Shown: piece by piece, positions 3,424-10,300 of the stretch
Position numbering within the stretch: the stretch's first letter is position 1
How the letters are laid out: each line of letters begins with the position of its first letter
Assembly: GCF_013170705.1 (NCBI RefSeq)
Contig: NZ_CP033334.1
Span: forward strand, 2,457,501-2,521,500
Direction of reading: 5' to 3'
Source: Mesorhizobium loti
Lineage (GTDB): Bacteria; Pseudomonadota; Alphaproteobacteria; Rhizobiales; Rhizobiaceae
Length of the DNA: 64,000 nt
The notes under the pieces: generated by a model
What the model saw: only the letters and a program-made list of their open reading frames with translations
Database searches by the model: none
Told to the model about the DNA's origin: nothing
Program-made: the position numbers and the translations under genes

Positions 3424-3888
3424 ATGCCCAAGATCGACCTCTCATCCGTCCCCATCCGCAAGGGCTCCGGCTATCCCGCGCCCTTCGATGCCCCTTGCGC
3501 CACCCGCACGCGCCGGCGCCTGGGGGACGCCGGCGGCCTCGCCGATTTCGGCGTCAACCTGATGACGCTCCCGCCCGGCGGCTGGTCGAGCCAGCGCCAC
3601 TGGCACAGCCATGAGGATGAGCTTGTCTATGTGCTGGAAGGCGAGTTGACGCTGGTCGAGGATGGCGGCGAGACGCTGCTCAAGGCGGGCGATAGTGCTG
3701 CCTTCGCCAAGAACAGCGGCAACGGCCACCACATGATCAACCGGTCGTCGGTTACAGCCCGCTACCTCGAAGTCGGCTCGCGCGACCCGGACGATGTCAT
3801 CACGTGCTCCGACATCGACATGATGAGCCCGAGTTCGGACGGGCGCTTCCTGCACAAGGACGGCACGCCTTATCCGGGGCAGGGGTGA
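3424..3888 (+). CDS. Cupin domain protein
   Basis: A 154-residue single-domain cupin. The metal-site motif is visible as WHSHEDELVYVLEGE (two His and a Glu, conserved motif 1), with the second motif around GNGHHMINRS. The protein ends with a family-typical FLHKDGTPYPG. Members are often found as stand-alone enzymes or sensors for small polar ligands; the ligand here is unknown. An in-frame ATG at 3412 exists, but MPKIDLSSVP at 3424 matches relatives better. There is no obvious operon partner; repeats flank both sides. Confidence 0.85.
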   Translation: MPKIDLSSVPIRKGSGYPAPFDAPCATRTRRRLGDAGGLADFGVNLMTLPPGGWSSQRHWHSHEDELVYVLEGELTLVEDGGETLLKAGDSAAFAKNSGNGHHMINRSSVTARYLEVGSRDPDDVITCSDIDMMSPSSDGRFLHKDGTPYPGQG

Positions 3889-3910
3889 GCGCTGGACGGC
3901 GTTGGCTTTT

Positions 3911-3970
3911 CCTTCTCCCCTTGTGGGAGAAGGTGGCCTCGCGAAGCGAGGTCGGATGAGGGGTGTTCCA
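3911..3970 (+). repeat. Palindromic intergenic repeat, family A, copy 3 (forward)
   Basis: A copy of the 61-bp unit seen at 971-1031, almost base for base. With copy 4 it forms an inverted pair just 24 bp apart, so the two could fold into one long cruciform between the cupin and RidA genes. Confidence 0.85.
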
Positions 3971-3994
3971 GGGAACACCAACGCCTCACTCCGC

Positions 3995-4060
3995 TGGAAC
4001 ACCCCTCATCCGTCTCGGCGCTATCGCGCCGATCCACCTTCTCCCGCAAGGGGAGAAGGG
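3995..4060 (-). repeat. Palindromic intergenic repeat, family A, copy 4 (reverse, variant)
   Basis: A reverse-oriented family-A unit with a different, longer middle stem (TCGGCGCTATCGCGCCGA). The outer stem CTTCTCCC-GCAA-GGGGAGAAG and the GATGAGGGGTGTTCCA tail (here on the minus strand) are conserved. It lies directly upstream of the duplicated RidA region. Confidence 0.8.
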
Positions 4061-4126
4061 AGGAACTGCGCTGGCGTTCGGCCGGCATCGGGATAAGCTG
4101 CCCCGCAAACCAAGGGGAGGATTGCC

Positions 4127-4519
4127 ATGAAGAAGGAAGTTGTGGAAGTGCCGGTGCTGTCGGCGGCCGTGCGGGCGCTCGGCGTGCCGCTGTCGCTGGT
4201 GACCAGGGGCGCGGGGCTGGTCTTCGTGTCCGGCACGCCGCCGCTCGATATCTCGACCGGCAGGCTGGTCAAGGGCGACATCGAGGTGCAGACCGAGGCC
4301 TCGCTCAAGGCGCTGAAGCATTGCCTGGAAGCCGCCGGTACCTCGCTCGACAATGTGTTGATGGTGCGCGTCTATGCCGTCAACTCCGGTTTCTACAACG
4401 CCATCAACCGCGTCTATGCCAAGTATTTTCCCGAAAACCCGCCGTCGCGGACCTTCGTGCCGGTGGCGTCATGGCCCATGGAGTTCGACATCGAGATCGA
4501 GTGCGTGGCGGTGGCTTGA
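4127..4519 (+). CDS. RidA family (YjgF/YER057c/UK114) protein, copy 1
   Basis: A 130-residue RidA-family protein. RidA enzymes hydrolyse reactive enamine/imine intermediates released by PLP enzymes, as cytoplasmic trimers. The signature near the C-terminus is NPPSRTFVPVASWPMEFDIEIE. Arg108 and Glu123 correspond to the arginine and glutamate used by active RidA, so deaminase activity is plausible. The start ATG 4127 follows a GGGGAGGAT ribosome binding site. It is about 78 percent identical (29 differences in 130) to the adjacent copy 2; differences concentrate in residues 6-53, where the N-terminal strands line the active-site cleft. This suggests divergence in substrate range. Confidence 0.9.
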   Translation: MKKEVVEVPVLSAAVRALGVPLSLVTRGAGLVFVSGTPPLDISTGRLVKGDIEVQTEASLKALKHCLEAAGTSLDNVLMVRVYAVNSGFYNAINRVYAKYFPENPPSRTFVPVASWPMEFDIEIECVAVA

Positions 4520-4591
4520 GGCCTGGCCCATGCCTCGGCGCTGGCGTTCGGCCGGTAGCGCTATAAGCTCCCCGCAAACGGGGAGATTGCC

Positions 4592-4984
4592 ATGAAGAAG
4601 GAAGTCATCGAAGTGCCGGTCATGTCGGCCAAGGTGCGGGCGCTCGGCCTGCCCTGTTCGACCGCGGTGAAAGCCAATGGCTTCGTGTTCATCTCGGCCA
4701 CGCCGCCGGTGGACATGGTGACCGGCGAGATGGTGCGCGGCGACATCGAAACGCAGACCGAGGCATCGCTCAAGGCGCTGAAACATTGCCTGGAAGCGGC
4801 CGGCACCTCGATGGAGAATGTCGTGATGGTGCGCATCTACGCGGTCAATTCAGGGTTCTACAACGCCATCAACAGGGTCTATGCGAAGTATTTTTCCACC
4901 AACCCGCCGGCGCGCAGCTTCGTGCCGGTGGCGTCCTGGCCGATGGAGTTCGATATCGAGATTGAGTGCGTGGCGGTGGCTTGA
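4592..4984 (+). CDS. RidA family protein, copy 2
   Basis: A 130-residue paralogue of the gene just upstream, same length with no internal indel. Arg108 and Glu123 are retained. The C-terminal half, from TEASLKALKHCLEAAGTS on, is nearly unchanged; the N-terminal third differs (for example LPCSTAVKANGFVF against VPLSLVTRGAGLVF). It has its own leader with GGGGAG before ATG 4592, so it can be expressed independently of copy 1. A stem-loop at 5011-5032 follows and probably ends transcription. Confidence 0.9.
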   Translation: MKKEVIEVPVMSAKVRALGLPCSTAVKANGFVFISATPPVDMVTGEMVRGDIETQTEASLKALKHCLEAAGTSMENVVMVRIYAVNSGFYNAINRVYAKYFSTNPPARSFVPVASWPMEFDIEIECVAVA

Positions 4985-5010
4985 GGGTGGGAAGCGGTCC
5001 GCGCAGCGGA

Positions 5011-5032
5011 CGAAAAGCCAATCGGCTTTTCG
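5011..5032 (+). terminator. Stem-loop after the RidA pair
   Basis: CGAAAAGCC (5011-5019) and GGCTTTTCG (5024-5032) form a perfect 9-bp stem with a 4-base loop. A smaller stem GTCCGC-GCA-GCGGAC overlaps it at 4997-5011. The T-run lies inside the second arm rather than after it, so terminator function is likely but not certain. Confidence 0.45.
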
Positions 5033-5083
5033 AGCTTCGAATGCCCTGAGCCTGCGAAGGGCCGGCAATGCCTAGCGTAAGTT

Positions 5084-5104
5084 TTTACTTGTATTTCAAG
5101 TAAA
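5084..5104. promoter_or_regulatory. Inverted repeat upstream of the 5145 gene
   Basis: TTTACTTG (5084-5091) and CAAGTAAA (5097-5104) form a perfect 8-bp inverted repeat with a 5-base TATTT centre. It marks the left edge of an AT-richer stretch, about 40 bp before the next start codon, and could be an operator or part of a promoter. Confidence 0.4.
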
Positions 5105-5144
5105 CTCGTCCTCAATTCCTATTGGGGATAGGGAGGGCGAGTCA

Positions 5145-5933
5145 TTGAACAAACTACCGAAGAAATTCATCGAGCGCGTTGCGTCGAATCTCAAGAAGTA
5201 TCAGCGGATCACGGTGGCCCAGCAAAAATCCGATGTCGCGGAGGCCGACACGGTTACCTTGGTCAAGGATATCCTGGCCGACGTTTTTGGCTACGATAAA
5301 TATGATGAACTCACGTCGGAACATCAGATCAAAGCGACATATTGTGACCTCGCGATCAAGATCGCAGGAAAACTGCGATTGCTTGTCGAAGTGAAATCAG
5401 CTGGCAGCAGCTTGGCCGACAATCACCTGAGACAAGTTATCGACTATGGAGCTCATCAGGGCATTCATTGGGTGATCCTGACCAACGCAGTCGAGTGGCG
5501 GCTGGTCCGTATCTATGTGGCAAACCAGATCAGCCACGAAGAGGTTTGCCGCATTGTACTTGCTGATATGAATCCCAAAAACGCGGATCATCTGCAGTGC
5601 CTTTTCCTGTTCGCCAAGGAAGGGCTGACGACCGATGCGATGGATGCCTTCCACCAGCAGGCCCAGCTGTTCAACAAGTTTACGGTTTCGGCGATCATCC
5701 GGTCCGAAGCTGTAATTTCGGTGGTGCGTCGCGAAATCCGGAAGCTGTTTCCTGACATCAAGGTCGGCAACGAGAACCTATCTCAGTTGATTGAGAACGA
5801 AGTGGTCAAGCGGGACACGATCGAAGGCGACAAGGCGAAGGAGGCAGTCGCCAGGATGCGAAAGGCACTGAACAAGCTGGAGAGAGCGAAAAAGAAAATT
5901 CCCAAGATTCCAGATATCGATCCTGTCTCTTGA
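5145..5933 (+). CDS. HsdR_N-type (type I restriction R subunit N-terminal domain) protein
   Basis: A 262-residue protein resembling the nuclease domain of type I restriction R subunits, here without helicase domains. A PD-(D/E)xK-like site is visible: Asp68 in TYCDLAIK, then Glu82-x-Lys84 in LLVEVKSAG. The typical QVIDYGAHQGIHWVILTNAVEWRLV follows (predicted strand-helix core). The C-terminal 60 residues are charged and helical, probably coiled coil (EAVARMRKALNKLERAKKKI). The start is TTG 5145, 7 bases after GGGAGGG; no better start exists. Codon use is AT-richer than neighbours. Stand-alone HsdR_N proteins occur widely with unknown function, and a defence role is possible. It precedes the graspetide-like genes by 36 bp. 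Confidence 0.7.
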   Translation: MNKLPKKFIERVASNLKKYQRITVAQQKSDVAEADTVTLVKDILADVFGYDKYDELTSEHQIKATYCDLAIKIAGKLRLLVEVKSAGSSLADNHLRQVIDYGAHQGIHWVILTNAVEWRLVRIYVANQISHEEVCRIVLADMNPKNADHLQCLFLFAKEGLTTDAMDAFHQQAQLFNKFTVSAIIRSEAVISVVRREIRKLFPDIKVGNENLSQLIENEVVKRDTIEGDKAKEAVARMRKALNKLERAKKKIPKIPDIDPVS

Positions 5934-5969
5934 TTGCTGAGCATGCGTCAAAGAATTCTAAGGTGATTG

Positions 5970-6944
5970 ATGATTCTGATTTTGGCGGACGCTTTCGACT
6001 CTCATGTTGACGCAGTCGAAATTTACCTCAGGCAGTCTGGGTCTGAATTCTCGAGGCTCAATCTTGACGTTGAGTCTCTTCGACAAACATCTATTTCATT
6101 TGACGGAGACATTTGGGTTTTCAGCCAAAATGGGATCGAAACCAGCTCAGCGGATATCAGCTGTGTGTGGGCGCGCCGCCTTACGGTGAGCCTAACGTTG
6201 GAACAGCAGAACTTGAAGGAAGATGTCACGTCCAAGATATGGCGCGCGGAGTGGAACCGTTGCCTTTATGGCCTGTACGCCCATCTACGAGATATATTCT
6301 GGATGAATCCGATTGCGGCGGCGTCGCTAGCGGACAATAAATACTTTCAATTTCAGGTGGCCAAAAGTCAAGGATTCCTCCTGCCTCCTATCCTATCGTC
6401 CAATTCAAAAATAGATCTACTGAAATTTGCCGAGCGTAGCGAGAGTGTTGCTGTGAAATTTATGTCTCAAGACATATATATGATGCCAAATGGCGAATTT
6501 AAGGGTGTGTATGTTAATAAGATTGATAAAGATGATTTGAGTGAATTTGGTGGGCATGACGAAAATCCAATTACACTTCAGAAATATATAAGAAAGAGCT
6601 ATGAGGTTCGTCATACCTATGTGGATGGGAGTCATTTTAGCTGTAAGATCGAATCGCAGCTTTCGAGTCGAGCAAGCATAGATTGGCGCCGGTATGATGT
6701 GCCTAATACTCCGCATTCCGCCATCGCTTCACCGCCAGAAGTTATAAGGCGAATAAATTCAATTATGAGTAAGCTTGGCCTATATTACGGAGCATTTGAC
6801 TTTATCGTGGATGACGACGACCGTTGGTGGTATCTGGAGGTAAATTCTTCGGGGCAGTGGCTTTGGATTGAAGACTTGGTGGGGCTTCCTATTTCTGCTA
6901 GAGTTGCGGAATCGCTAGCTCAACGGTCGATTGTTAGAAATTGA
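5970..6944 (+). CDS. ATP-grasp peptide ligase, microviridin/graspetide synthetase-like (MvdC/MvdD type)
   Basis: A 324-residue ATP-grasp protein resembling the ligases that install side-chain ester or amide links in microviridins and other graspetides. Seen in order: the N-terminal strand MILILAD, RLNLD (29-33), the helix WNRCLYGLYAHLRDIFWMNP (95-114), NKYFQFQVAKSQGFLLPP as the family linker, AVKF with Lys163 (ATP site), RHTYVDG (214-220), GAFDFIVD (274-281) and YLEVNSSGQWLWIED (288-302). In this last motif Glu290 and Asn292 are the Mg-binding pair. ATG 5970 is chosen over an adjacent TTG. Base use is markedly AT-rich and codons are unlike neighbours, suggesting horizontal transfer. The 68-residue gene 12 bp downstream is the likely substrate. 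Confidence 0.8.
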   Translation: MILILADAFDSHVDAVEIYLRQSGSEFSRLNLDVESLRQTSISFDGDIWVFSQNGIETSSADISCVWARRLTVSLTLEQQNLKEDVTSKIWRAEWNRCLYGLYAHLRDIFWMNPIAAASLADNKYFQFQVAKSQGFLLPPILSSNSKIDLLKFAERSESVAVKFMSQDIYMMPNGEFKGVYVNKIDKDDLSEFGGHDENPITLQKYIRKSYEVRHTYVDGSHFSCKIESQLSSRASIDWRRYDVPNTPHSAIASPPEVIRRINSIMSKLGLYYGAFDFIVDDDDRWWYLEVNSSGQWLWIEDLVGLPISARVAESLAQRSIVRN

Positions 6945-6956
6945 AAGGGAAGGCTA

Positions 6957-7163
6957 ATGAAAGTATTTGGTGAGCGTTTTTTGGAGACGATGCAATCCAA
7001 CGAAACCATTTCTGCTGAAGACTGGTCTTGGAAGCCGGCTTCTGGCGATTCGTATCGAATTTTTGCGTCGGGAAATTCTACCCGCTCGCGCGAATCTACT
7101 TACGCTGCGGAAAGAGATAACCGTGAAGACGAAGACAGGCCAAATGAAGGTTTGGCTGCGTAA
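6957..7163 (+). CDS. Putative graspetide precursor peptide (68 aa)
   Basis: A 68-residue peptide starting 12 bp after the ATP-grasp ligase stop, behind the ribosome binding site GAAAGGGAAGG. Its N-terminus, VFGERFLETM (3-12), resembles the leader helix PFFARFLE that microviridin ligases recognise. The C-terminal half has clustered hydroxyl residues (Ser41, Thr42, Ser44, Ser47, Thr48) followed by acidic residues (Glu46, Glu52, Asp54, Glu57, Asp58, Glu59, Asp60). These are the acceptors and donors needed for omega-ester rings. It ends GLAA. No signal peptide or cysteine is present. Precursor status is inferred from position, leader resemblance and composition; no homologue could be searched. 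An alternative is a small unrelated cytoplasmic protein. Confidence 0.6.
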   Translation: MKVFGERFLETMQSNETISAEDWSWKPASGDSYRIFASGNSTRSRESTYAAERDNREDEDRPNEGLAA

Positions 7164-7262
7164 CGCTTCTGCCGCCTTCTCTTTGGAGCGGGTGGTAATT
7201 GATGTGTTGTGCTGAATGATTTGTCAGAAGAATCGCAGCGCCGGCGGGACAGCGCCCCCCTC

Positions 7263-7298
7263 TGGCCTACCGGCCATCTCCCCCACAAGGGGGGAGAT
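7263..7298. repeat. Palindromic intergenic repeat, family B
   Basis: Two adjoining stem-loops: TGGCC-TACC-GGCCA (7263-7276) and ATCTCCCCC-ACAAG-GGGGGAGAT (7276-7298). It lies at the 3' end of carB and closes the AT-rich island. It could serve as a terminator for both converging units. Confidence 0.7.
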
Positions 7299-7309
7299 CA
7301 GCTAGTCGC

Positions 7310-10300
7310 CTAAGCAAAATACTCCTGCAGCGGCCTGACCTCCAGGCTCCCCGCCTTCAGCGCCGCAATCGCCTCCGCCACCGCAGCCGCACCCGACAGC
7401 GTGGTGTAATACGGCACCTTCTGCATCAGTGTGGCGCGCCGCAGCGATTTCGAGTCCGATACCGCCTTCTGGCCGTCCGTCGTGTTGAAGACGATTTGGA
7501 CCTGGCGGTTGCGGATGGCGTCCTCGATGTGGGGGCGGCCTTCGAGCACCTTGTTGATCTTCTGGGCGTCGACGCCGTTTTCGGCAAGGAAGCGCTGTGT
7601 GCCTGAGGTGGCCAGCACCTTGAAGCCGAGGCCGGCCAGGCGCTTCACCGCCGGCAAGATGCCCTTCTTGTCCTCGTCGCGCACCGAGACGAACAGCGTG
7701 CCGGAGCGGGGAAGGTCGACGCCGGCGCCGAGCTGGCTCTTGGCGAAGGCCAGCGCGAAGTCGCGGTCGAGGCCCATGACCTCGCCGGTCGAGCGCATTT
7801 CCGGCCCGAGCAATATGTCGACGCCGGGGAAGCGGGCGAAGGGGAAGACGGCTTCCTTGACCGCGATGTGGCCGGGATTGCGCGGGTCGGGCATCGCGCC
7901 ATAATGGGCGAAGGCATCTTCCAGCGTCTCGCCGGCCATGATGCGGGCAGCGATTTTCGCAATGGGGCGGCCGATCGTCTTGGCGACGAAGGGCACGGTG
8001 CGCGAGGCGCGCGGGTTGACCTCCAGCACGTATACCGTGCCGTCCTTGATCGCGTACTGCACGTTCATCAGGCCGCCGACATTGAGCGCGCGGGCCAGCG
8101 CCGCCGTCTGGCGTTCCAGCTCGTCGACCAGGTCCGAGGGCAGCGAGTGCACGGGCAGCGAGCAGGCCGAGTCGCCCGAATGGATGCCGGCCTCCTCGAT
8201 GTGCTCCAGGATGCCCGACACGAAGGTCGCCTTGCCGTCGCAGAGGCAGTCGACATCGACCTCGATGGCGCCACTGAGATAGGTGTCGAACAAAAGCGGG
8301 TTCTTGCCCAGGAGCGTGTTGATCTGGCCGGTCTTGTCGTTGGGGTATTTCTGCTTGATGTCCTCCGGCACCAGGCCGGGCACGGTGTCGAGCAGGTAGG
8401 ATTGCAGCATGCCCTCGTCATGGATGATCTGCATGGCGCGGCCGCCGAGCACATAGGACGGGCGCACCACCAGCGGAAAGCCGAGCTCGCCGGCGACGAG
8501 GCGGGCCTGCTCGACCGAATAGGCGATGCCGTTCTTCGGCTGGCTGAGGTTGAGCTTGTGCAACAGCTTCTGGAAGCGGTCGCGGTCTTCCGCCAGATCG
8601 ATCATGTCAGGCGAGGTGCCGAGGATCGGGATGCCGGCCTTCTCCAGGGCGTCGGCGAGCTTCAGCGGCGTCTGGCCGCCGAACTGCACGATGACGCCGA
8701 CCAGTTCGCCCGACGCCTGCTCGGCGCGCAGGATCTCCAGCACGTCCTCCGCCGTCAGCGGATCGAAATAGAGCCGGTCCGACGTGTCGTAGTCGGTCGA
8801 GACCGTCTCCGGGTTGCAGTTGATCATGATCGCTTCATAGCCGGCATCGCGTAGCGCGAAGGCGGCGTGGCAGCAGCAATAGTCGAATTCGATGCCCTGG
8901 CCGATGCGGTTCGGCCCGCCGCCGAGGATGACGACCTTCTTGCGCGACGAGACCTGCGCCTCGTTGGCGAGCGCGCCGGCGAAGGGCACTTCATAGGTCG
9001 AGTACATGTAGGCGGTGGGCGAGGCGAACTCGGCCGCGCAGGTGTCGATGCGTTTATAAACTGGATGAACGTCGAGCTTTTCGCGAATCTTCTGAATCAC
9101 TTCCGCGTCGGTCTTCGTCAGCGAGGCGAGGCGGGCATCGGAGAAGCCCATGGCCTTCAGCATGCGCAGGTTGACCGCATCCTGCGGGATGCCGTGCTCG
9201 CGGATGCGGGCTTCCATGGCCAGGATGCCTGATATCTGTTCGAGGAACCACGGGTCGATCTTGCACATGGCGTGCACGTCTTCCAGCGAGGTCCCCATGC
9301 GGATCGCCTGCGCCACCATGCGCAGCCGGTCGGGTGTCGGCGTGCCAAGGGCGGCGCGGATGGCGTTGCGGTCGTCGGCATGGTTGGCGGAACCGAGACC
9401 GGGGATCTCGATCTCGTCAAGACCGGTGAGGCCGGTTTCGAGGCCGCGCAGCGCCTTCTGCAGCGATTCCTGGAAGGTGCGGCCGATGGCCATCACTTCG
9501 CCGACCGACTTCATGGCGGTGGTCAGCACCGGCTCGGCGCCGGGGAATTTCTCGAAGGCGAAGCGCGGGATCTTGGTGACGACGTAATCGATCGACGGCT
9601 CGAAGGAGGCGGGCGTGGCGCCGCCGGTGATGTCGTTCTCCAGCTCGTCCAGCGTGTAGCCGACGGCGAGCTTTGCGGCGATCTTGGCGATGGGGAAGCC
9701 GGTCGCCTTCGAGGCCAGGGCGGAGCTGCGCGAGACGCGCGGGTTCATCTCGATGACGACGAGGCGGCCGTCGGCCGGGTTGACGGCGAACTGCACGTTG
9801 GAACCGCCGGTCTCGACGCCGATCTCGCGCAGCACCGCGATCGAGGCGTTGCGCATCATCTGGTATTCTTTGTCGGTGAGCGTCAGGGCAGGGGCGACGG
9901 TGATCGAGTCACCCGTATGCACGCCCATCGGGTCGATGTTCTCGATCGAGCAGACGATGATGCAATTGTCCGCTTTGTCGCGGACGACCTCCATCTCATA
10001 CTCCTTCCAGCCGAGCACGCTTTCCTCGATCAGCACTTCGGTGGTCGGCGAGGCGTCGAGGCCTGACTGGACGATCTCGTAGAATTCGGCCCTGTTGTAG
10101 GCGATGCCGCCGCCGGTGCCGCCCATGGTGAAGGAGGGGCGGATGATGGCGGGCAGGCCGACATGGTCGAGCGCCTGGGCGGCGATCGCCATGGCGTGGC
10201 TGATGTAGCGCTGCTTGCGGTCGCCTTCGCCGAGGTTCCAGCGGGTTTCCAGCGCGTCGAGCGCGGCGTCGAGATTGTCGGGCTTCTCGGCCTTGAGCGC

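Follow-up and report, generated by a model that had tools for sequence, protein, structure and literature searches.

Does an ATP-grasp ligase gene with a short open reading frame directly behind it form a complete pathway for a modified peptide, and what might such a peptide do? The two genes lie in a 64,000-nucleotide stretch of Mesorhizobium loti DNA (the whole stretch analysed, hereafter the window), where a sequence-only reading had proposed a candidate graspetide (omega-ester RiPP) locus. The present analysis upholds this proposal in the main, as the ligase groups with graspetide synthetases (175 bits to the MvdC model, and the fold of MdnC), and the window very probably contains a self-contained graspetide cassette with the following features.

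5970..6944, + strand: graspetide synthetase-type ATP-grasp ligase, 324 aa (NCBIfam, PDB, Foldseek, tree)
6957..7163, + strand: predicted graspetide precursor peptide, 68 aa (profile matches, ligase pairing, purifying selection)
6963..6986, + strand: leader motif V-F-G-E-R-F-L-E, residues 3-10, expected ligase-binding helix (conservation)
7023..7037, + strand: W-x-W-x-P, residues 23-27, leader/linker (conservation)
7062..7073, + strand: F-A-S-G, residues 36-39 (Y-A-S-G in the consensus), a putative region of leader cleavage (conservation)
7074..7160, + strand: predicted core, residues 40-68 (conserved hydroxyls and carboxylates, and R61-P62-N63-E64-G65)

The ligase gene starts with the ATG at 5970, and its stop codon ends at 6944. 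This ATG was preferred over the TTG at 5967 because most of the aligned ligase relatives start with MILI-. The peptide gene follows after a gap of 12 bp, as had been described, and extends from the ATG at 6957 to a stop codon ending at 7163; AGGGAAGG is located a few bases 5' of this ATG, and the encoded peptide contains the VFGERFLETM sequence noted previously. Between positions 5700 and 7350 no sigma-70-like promoter was found, and the single terminator-like site, a count not above that in shuffled sequences, lies within the ligase gene.

The ligase contains both motifs on which its assignment had been based, RLNLD and YLEVNSSGQWLW. In the NCBIfam scan it scored 175 bits with TIGR04185 (MvdC), 165 with TIGR04187 (SAV_5884), 146 with TIGR04184 (MvdD), 106 with the grasp-with-spasm model and 21 with RimK, all below the curated cut-offs of these single equivalog models (425 for MvdC and 143 for RimK). 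Pfam PF21068 scored 26.5 against a cut-off of 27; thus, the enzyme is not assignable by family models alone. A PDB sequence search matched 7m4s, 5ig9, 5ig8, 7mgv and 9bou, the matched proteins being AMdnB, MdnC, MdnB, a Chryseobacterium RiPP ligase (CdnC) and PruB. For the AlphaFold2 model (pLDDT 89.4), the best Foldseek match was MdnC (5ig9 in the Foldseek listing) with a TM-score of 0.85, with PsnB and then RimK below it. Residues K163, R214, D277, E290 and N292 are invariant among 32 aligned ligase relatives and align with K, R, D, E and N of 5ig9.

A RimK- or glutathione synthetase-like ligase could instead add glutamate or another amino acid to the peptide and form no cross-link. RimK glutamate ligases have the ATP-grasp fold in common with our enzyme and are the next fold below the graspetide synthetases in Foldseek (TM-score 0.62-0.68), and the RimK model was matched by 29 of 32 clade ligases (best 6.8e-13), the glutathione synthase model TIGR01380 by two of them (best 1.2e-5). 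However, all 32 matched the four RiPP-ligase models, neither RimK nor glutathione synthetase was the best NCBIfam match of the window ligase (21 bits for RimK versus 175 for MvdC), and the MvdD pre-ATP-grasp domain was matched (7.4e-6). Moreover, conservation in the peptide falls on internal Ser/Thr and Asp/Glu residues, whereas the C-terminal tail is variable in sequence and length. We therefore regard simple amino acid addition as highly improbable, and the comparisons support placing the window ligase with the peptide-crosslinking ATP-grasp enzymes.

The 68-residue peptide is, judging from its homologues, a real and selected precursor and not a chance open reading frame, because a search with the single sequence gave 40 matches (its own and 39 others, with 57-79% identity) and a profile search gave 431 proteins, the window's own included. 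Nearly all of the precursors among the matches listed (120 of 431) are 66-70 aa long. The precursor is under purifying selection; in the codons of residues 39-65 from 29 loci, third positions differ in 61% of comparisons, and first and second positions in 28% and 23%, respectively. The family is without a name in Pfam or NCBIfam: none of 34 precursors matched any NCBIfam family below E 0.09, the window peptide had no Pfam match above cut-off, and the precursor profile gave three matches in PDB, all at chance level. AlphaFold2 produced no confident fold (pLDDT 57.7) and did not model the leader stretch as a helix; such a poor fold is expected for an unmodified RiPP precursor.

We scanned genomes with the ligase alignment and found 126 relatives, of which the best 80 are used for the pairing counts. 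In these 80 the ligase identity steps from 41% (L037) to 34% (L039), and two partial matches, L038 (52%) and L042 (49%), belong to the upper set. The peptide is present in all 27 upper loci (L013-L038 and L042), as well as in L094, L116 and the window. Pairing was strict in the loci examined: a precursor with the conserved leader adjoins 30 of the 31 clade ligases, and in the 31st (L093) the contig ends just after the ligase. The precursor HMM, searched in six frames at E up to 10, matched the cassette loci and the duplicates of the window but none of the 53 other loci among the best 80, nor L002-L012, L095 or L118-L120, with the qualification that it was built partly from cassette loci and that some non-clade loci have short flanks. 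Homologues of the peptide beside related ligases, which had been named as a check on the proposal, are conserved, and none was found in the 53 other loci. The nearest outside ligase, L039, has no family precursor in a stretch that ends about 250 bp past the ligase. The order is ligase then precursor in 27 of 30 loci and is reversed in three Campylobacterota. In these Helicobacter and Campylobacter loci (L034, L036 and L042) the precursor comes first, and the ligase frame of L042 is interrupted.

In a tree of 62 ligases, the 29 cassette ligases formed one clade with support of 100/100 (L015 and L038 were left out as partial, and the row of L042 is half filled), separate from the MvdC/MvdD, tgmB, Bacteroidota and CPR sequences. 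The hosts belong to Pseudomonadota, Bacillota, Bacteroidota, Cyanobacteriota, Campylobacterota and Actinomycetota; the last is represented by one MAG, which groups with two Bacillota (97/98), so that a binning error is possible. The cassette is rare: when 398 genomes of the phylum were sampled, the precursor turned up in two, one of them the window's own. Any ligase match was found in 10 of 150 relatives including its own genome, the others showing at most 30% identity over the full length and, over a single short segment, 39%.

Residue conservation was counted in 172 distinct precursors, obtained from 179 rows (40 from the single-sequence search and the 120 listed of 431, which overlap and total 150, plus 29 loci); because of these sources the set is biased to close relatives. 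In the leader, F4 is conserved in 170, [FY]8 in 171, L9 in 166 and E10 in 171 of them. The leader had been likened to PFFARFLE of microviridin precursors. Its conservation stands, but when hhalign paired it with that motif in a microviridin precursor from Nostoc, the probability was only 2.4%, and this match was set aside as proof. In the linker, W23 (171), W25 (172) and P27 (172) are conserved on a par with the core. Position 36 is Y in 164 precursors and F in seven, position 38 is S in 158, C in 10 and T in four, and G39 is found in all 172; we infer cleavage after G39.

In the core, the putative hydroxyl donors T42 (172), S/T44 (171), S47 (172) and T48 (172) and the carboxylate acceptors E52 (169), D54 (172), D58 (171), D60 (172) and E64 (171) rank among the most conserved positions of the precursor, each being kept in at least 169 of 172; Y49 (172), R61 (172), P62 (171), N63 (170) and G65 (172) are conserved likewise. 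The earlier assignment of acceptor hydroxyls to residues 41-48 and of carboxylates to residues 46-60 thus holds in part: S41, E46, E57 and E59 are not conserved, and the carboxylate range was too narrow, since E64 lies beyond it. Position 44 is split between S (86) and T (85), with A in one precursor, a free exchange that is expected if the hydroxyl alone counts. Position 46 is Q in 73 of the 172, which makes E46 unlikely as an acceptor. Position 53, which is R in the window, is the one core position that is often Lys (K in 124, R in 34, T in 13 and A in one). D58 is replaced by S in one Helicobacter precursor and E52 by G in one Campylobacter precursor; not every carboxylate may be needed everywhere, unless these loci have decayed.

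These patterns suggest the following chemistry. Leader residues 3-10 would dock on the ligase, which would use ATP to phosphorylate conserved Asp/Glu side chains, and the activated side chains would then be joined to those of conserved Ser/Thr residues. Most likely three or four ester rings would connect T42, S44, S47 and T48 with residues chosen from E52, D54, D58, D60 and E64, and the simplest geometry would be a nested hairpin, for example 48-52, 47-54, 44-58 and 42-60. A protease whose gene lies elsewhere may then cleave the product behind G39, or it might be active uncut. The unmodified 68-aa precursor has a calculated monoisotopic mass of 7747.56 Da, which three or four links would lower to 7693.53 or 7675.52 Da; for a 29-aa core the value is 3308.50 Da, less 18.01 for each link. 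If so, one compact enzyme may install three or four esters, and hundreds of natural substrate variants are available.

Around the pair, the window encodes BrkB-like, PNPOx-like, cupin, two Rid-family and HSDR_N-like proteins, the large chain of carbamoyl-phosphate synthase and an SH3 protein. The two Rid/YjgF-family proteins (PF01042), at 4127-4519 and 4592-4984, are a tandem pair of closely similar 130-aa sequences, and the HSDR_N_2-like gene at 5145-5933 is an orphan (PF13588, 24.6 bits, just under the cut-off). The scanned window neighbours included no acetyltransferase, exporter, protease or methyltransferase, the first two as had been noted; the pathway may nevertheless draw on genes elsewhere, as two C39-peptidase-domain frames lie in other parts of the genome. 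In 30 neighbourhoods with 405 ORFs of at least 60 aa, no family beyond the ligase and the peptide occurred in more than four, and no exporter, protease or immunity gene was common to the loci. The most recurrent neighbours were an ABC-type ATPase (four loci), a UvrD helicase (three) and a serine recombinase (three). The ATPase genes lie within 8.5 kb of the cassette, and the two that were scanned match ABC_tran; GNAT acetyltransferase matches were seen in three of 123 neighbour proteins of other members.

The HSDR_N-like gene, being on the same strand and ending 36 bp 5' of the ligase start, might be taken for a third component. However, a genome of the same genus (L100) has an empty site, in which the Rid/HSDR_N stretch (window 4525-5890, 89% identity) is followed by carB without the ligase and the peptide, the matching blocks being 76 bp apart in L100 and about 1.36 kb apart in the window. 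Furthermore, no relative of the gene occurs beside other clade ligases in the 30 neighbourhoods. The empty site and this lack of recurrence rule out the gene as a component, and its involvement has a practically negligible chance. Comparison of 19 loci from the same genus, covering up to 1.5 kb beyond carB, showed it in L100 alone, and it is possibly itself variable at this spot.

The cassette would have spread horizontally as ligase and precursor only. Its GC content is below that of the flank in 25 of 27 loci (the exceptions being L019 and L037), for example 0.46 versus 0.64 in the window, 0.38 versus 0.63 in Pseudomonas and 0.37 versus 0.66 in Halomonas. For this count the cassette was defined as the ligase together with the next 250 bp; the precursors of L034, L036 and L042 fall outside this definition, and L116 contributes a flank of only about 200 bp. 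In L116 (196-2458), the cassette lies between 59-bp inverted repeats (98%), and the resulting unit of 2.26 kb has no other ORF above 93 aa; since no gene of transposase size is enclosed, this unit looks like a non-autonomous mobile element. Of the direct repeats near other cassettes, that of L029 reads as a duplicated start of the downstream gene, and those of L032 and L022 look like terminators or dispersed repeats; thus, we claim no single mobility mechanism.

A tblastn search with the precursor gave no match in 72,556 plasmid records, and the ligase matched 59 plasmid records with a best identity of 30% and no clade member among the 20 matches listed. A Yersinia ruckeri relative (P0047) matched two phage records at 27-29% identity, both outside the clade. 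These graspetide synthetase-like ATP-grasp genes are located in KF114876.1 (59120-60067) and MT835913.1 (8833-9771). Among viral contigs the precursor had no confirmed match; the ligase search gave L093 and L094 within the clade and L095 outside it. The L093 contig (IMG/VR) carries at 3839-7789, directly 5' of the clade ligase, a Gabija system with both of its genes (matches to the GajA and GajB models). In 26 upstream stretches, LexA-type boxes numbered 0, 0 and 1 (0.1, 0.0 and 0.1 in shuffled sequences), loose promoter patterns were slightly above shuffles (13 versus 9.5 and 4 versus 2.3), and no notable 7-mer was in common.

The core has drifted less than the enzyme. Over 351 pairs of 27 loci, mean pairwise identity was 0.70 for the core, 0.46 for the leader and 0.50 for the ligase; the core exceeded the ligase in 99.4% of these non-independent pairs, whereas the leader did so in 22%. 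In a rough control at ligase identities of 0.40-0.62, the last 32 aligned residues of the peptide were more alike than the ligases in 98% of the 316 pairs formed by 26 cassette loci versus 16% of 203 pairs from non-cassette ligase loci of the scan (48 loci); here too the pairs are non-independent, the control small ORFs are presumed precursors, another 63 of the 266 control pairs lacked a homologous small ORF, and a few control pairs reach 81% C-terminal identity. As the core is kept while the leader and the ligase drift across phyla and synonymous sites are well diverged, the product itself seems to be selected. A core that hardly varies suggests a single fixed target or partner and not a diversified weapon.

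There is an appreciable though less than even chance that the product is a protease inhibitor of the microviridin or plesiocin kind, which would be exported and would rely on enzymes from other loci for its processing. The available part of Makarova et al. 2022 (PMC8939145) states that all graspetides characterized by then are protease inhibitors; furthermore, two C39-peptidase-domain frames are encoded in trans in the genome of the window, and ABC-type ATPase genes lie near the cassette in the four loci mentioned. However, no exporter is common to most loci or adjoins the window pair, and according to the same part of that paper graspetide cores are highly diverse, even next to closely related ligases, unlike the near-invariant cross-phylum core found here. 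Conversely, the peptide might stay in the cell and act with its leader still attached, for example as a stable cross-linked miniprotein in anti-phage defence. The lack of transporter, protease and immunity genes common to most neighbourhoods would fit, as would a W-x-W-x-P linker conserved as well as the core. Neighbours of defence type include Gabija by L093, HerA by L016, PLD_Helicase by L029 and UvrD-type helicases by L017 and L031, although these names come from ten hand-picked proteins, concern about five of 31 loci and have no matched background count. UvrD matches are weak evidence of defence, and PADLOC over 123 neighbours gave no family more than three times among the matches listed (25 of 268 families). 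Furthermore, W-x-W-x-P may serve only ligase binding, the small residues of the conserved Y-A-S-G could mark a cleavage site, and C39 peptidases are present in trans; on balance we consider such an intracellular peptide unlikely.

A bolder reading, which we hold to be less likely than not, starts from a mobile cassette of two genes that occurs in at least six phyla but is rare in the one sampled. Its product would be a near-invariant cross-linked peptide whose target is deeply conserved and is perhaps met within the producing cell, for instance a phage protein or a core protein of the cell. If this is true, the product would be a graspetide of fixed function and not a diversified exported inhibitor. 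What the peptide binds becomes approachable with a two-gene construct of 1.2 kb.

Among known systems, the microviridin ligases (MdnB/MdnC, MvdC/MvdD and AMdnB) are similar to the window ligase in fold and sequence, and microviridins likewise have a short leader with x-F-x-x-[RK]-[FY]-L-E, although the alignment is weak. Microviridin cores are characterised by K-[YF]-P-S-D and a Lys amide. In the Nostoc microviridin precursor this motif is repeated, whereas the window core does not contain it. The Nostoc reference locus (L118) has MvdC and MvdD, a peptidase-ABC transporter and HlyD; in contrast, the whole genome of the window has a single MvdC-type ligase match, and no such transporter was found among the scanned window neighbours. 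The cassette also differs from microviridins in placing the ligase first and in forming a separate clade. The stem-loop graspetides OEP6-1, fuscimiditide and amycolimiditide have three nested, two and four links, respectively. As in these peptides, the hydroxyl residues of the window core precede its carboxylates, an order that would allow the nested topology described for stem-loop graspetides in the available part of PMC12291112; this likeness is by description and not by peptide sequence, and unlike them the window has no methyltransferase among the scanned neighbours. Text searches with the core strings DRPNEG, STYAAE and SDRPNE gave no match in the papers searched, and the available part of PMC8939145 describes no multi-phylum branch with the window core. 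Carter et al. 2026 (PMC13097080), in the part available, list 24 plus 19 graspetide groups, of which groups 27, 28 and 35 consist of a synthetase and a precursor only. This is the two-gene layout of the window, likened by description and not by core consensus, and the cassette family may already be included in one of these 43 numbered groups.
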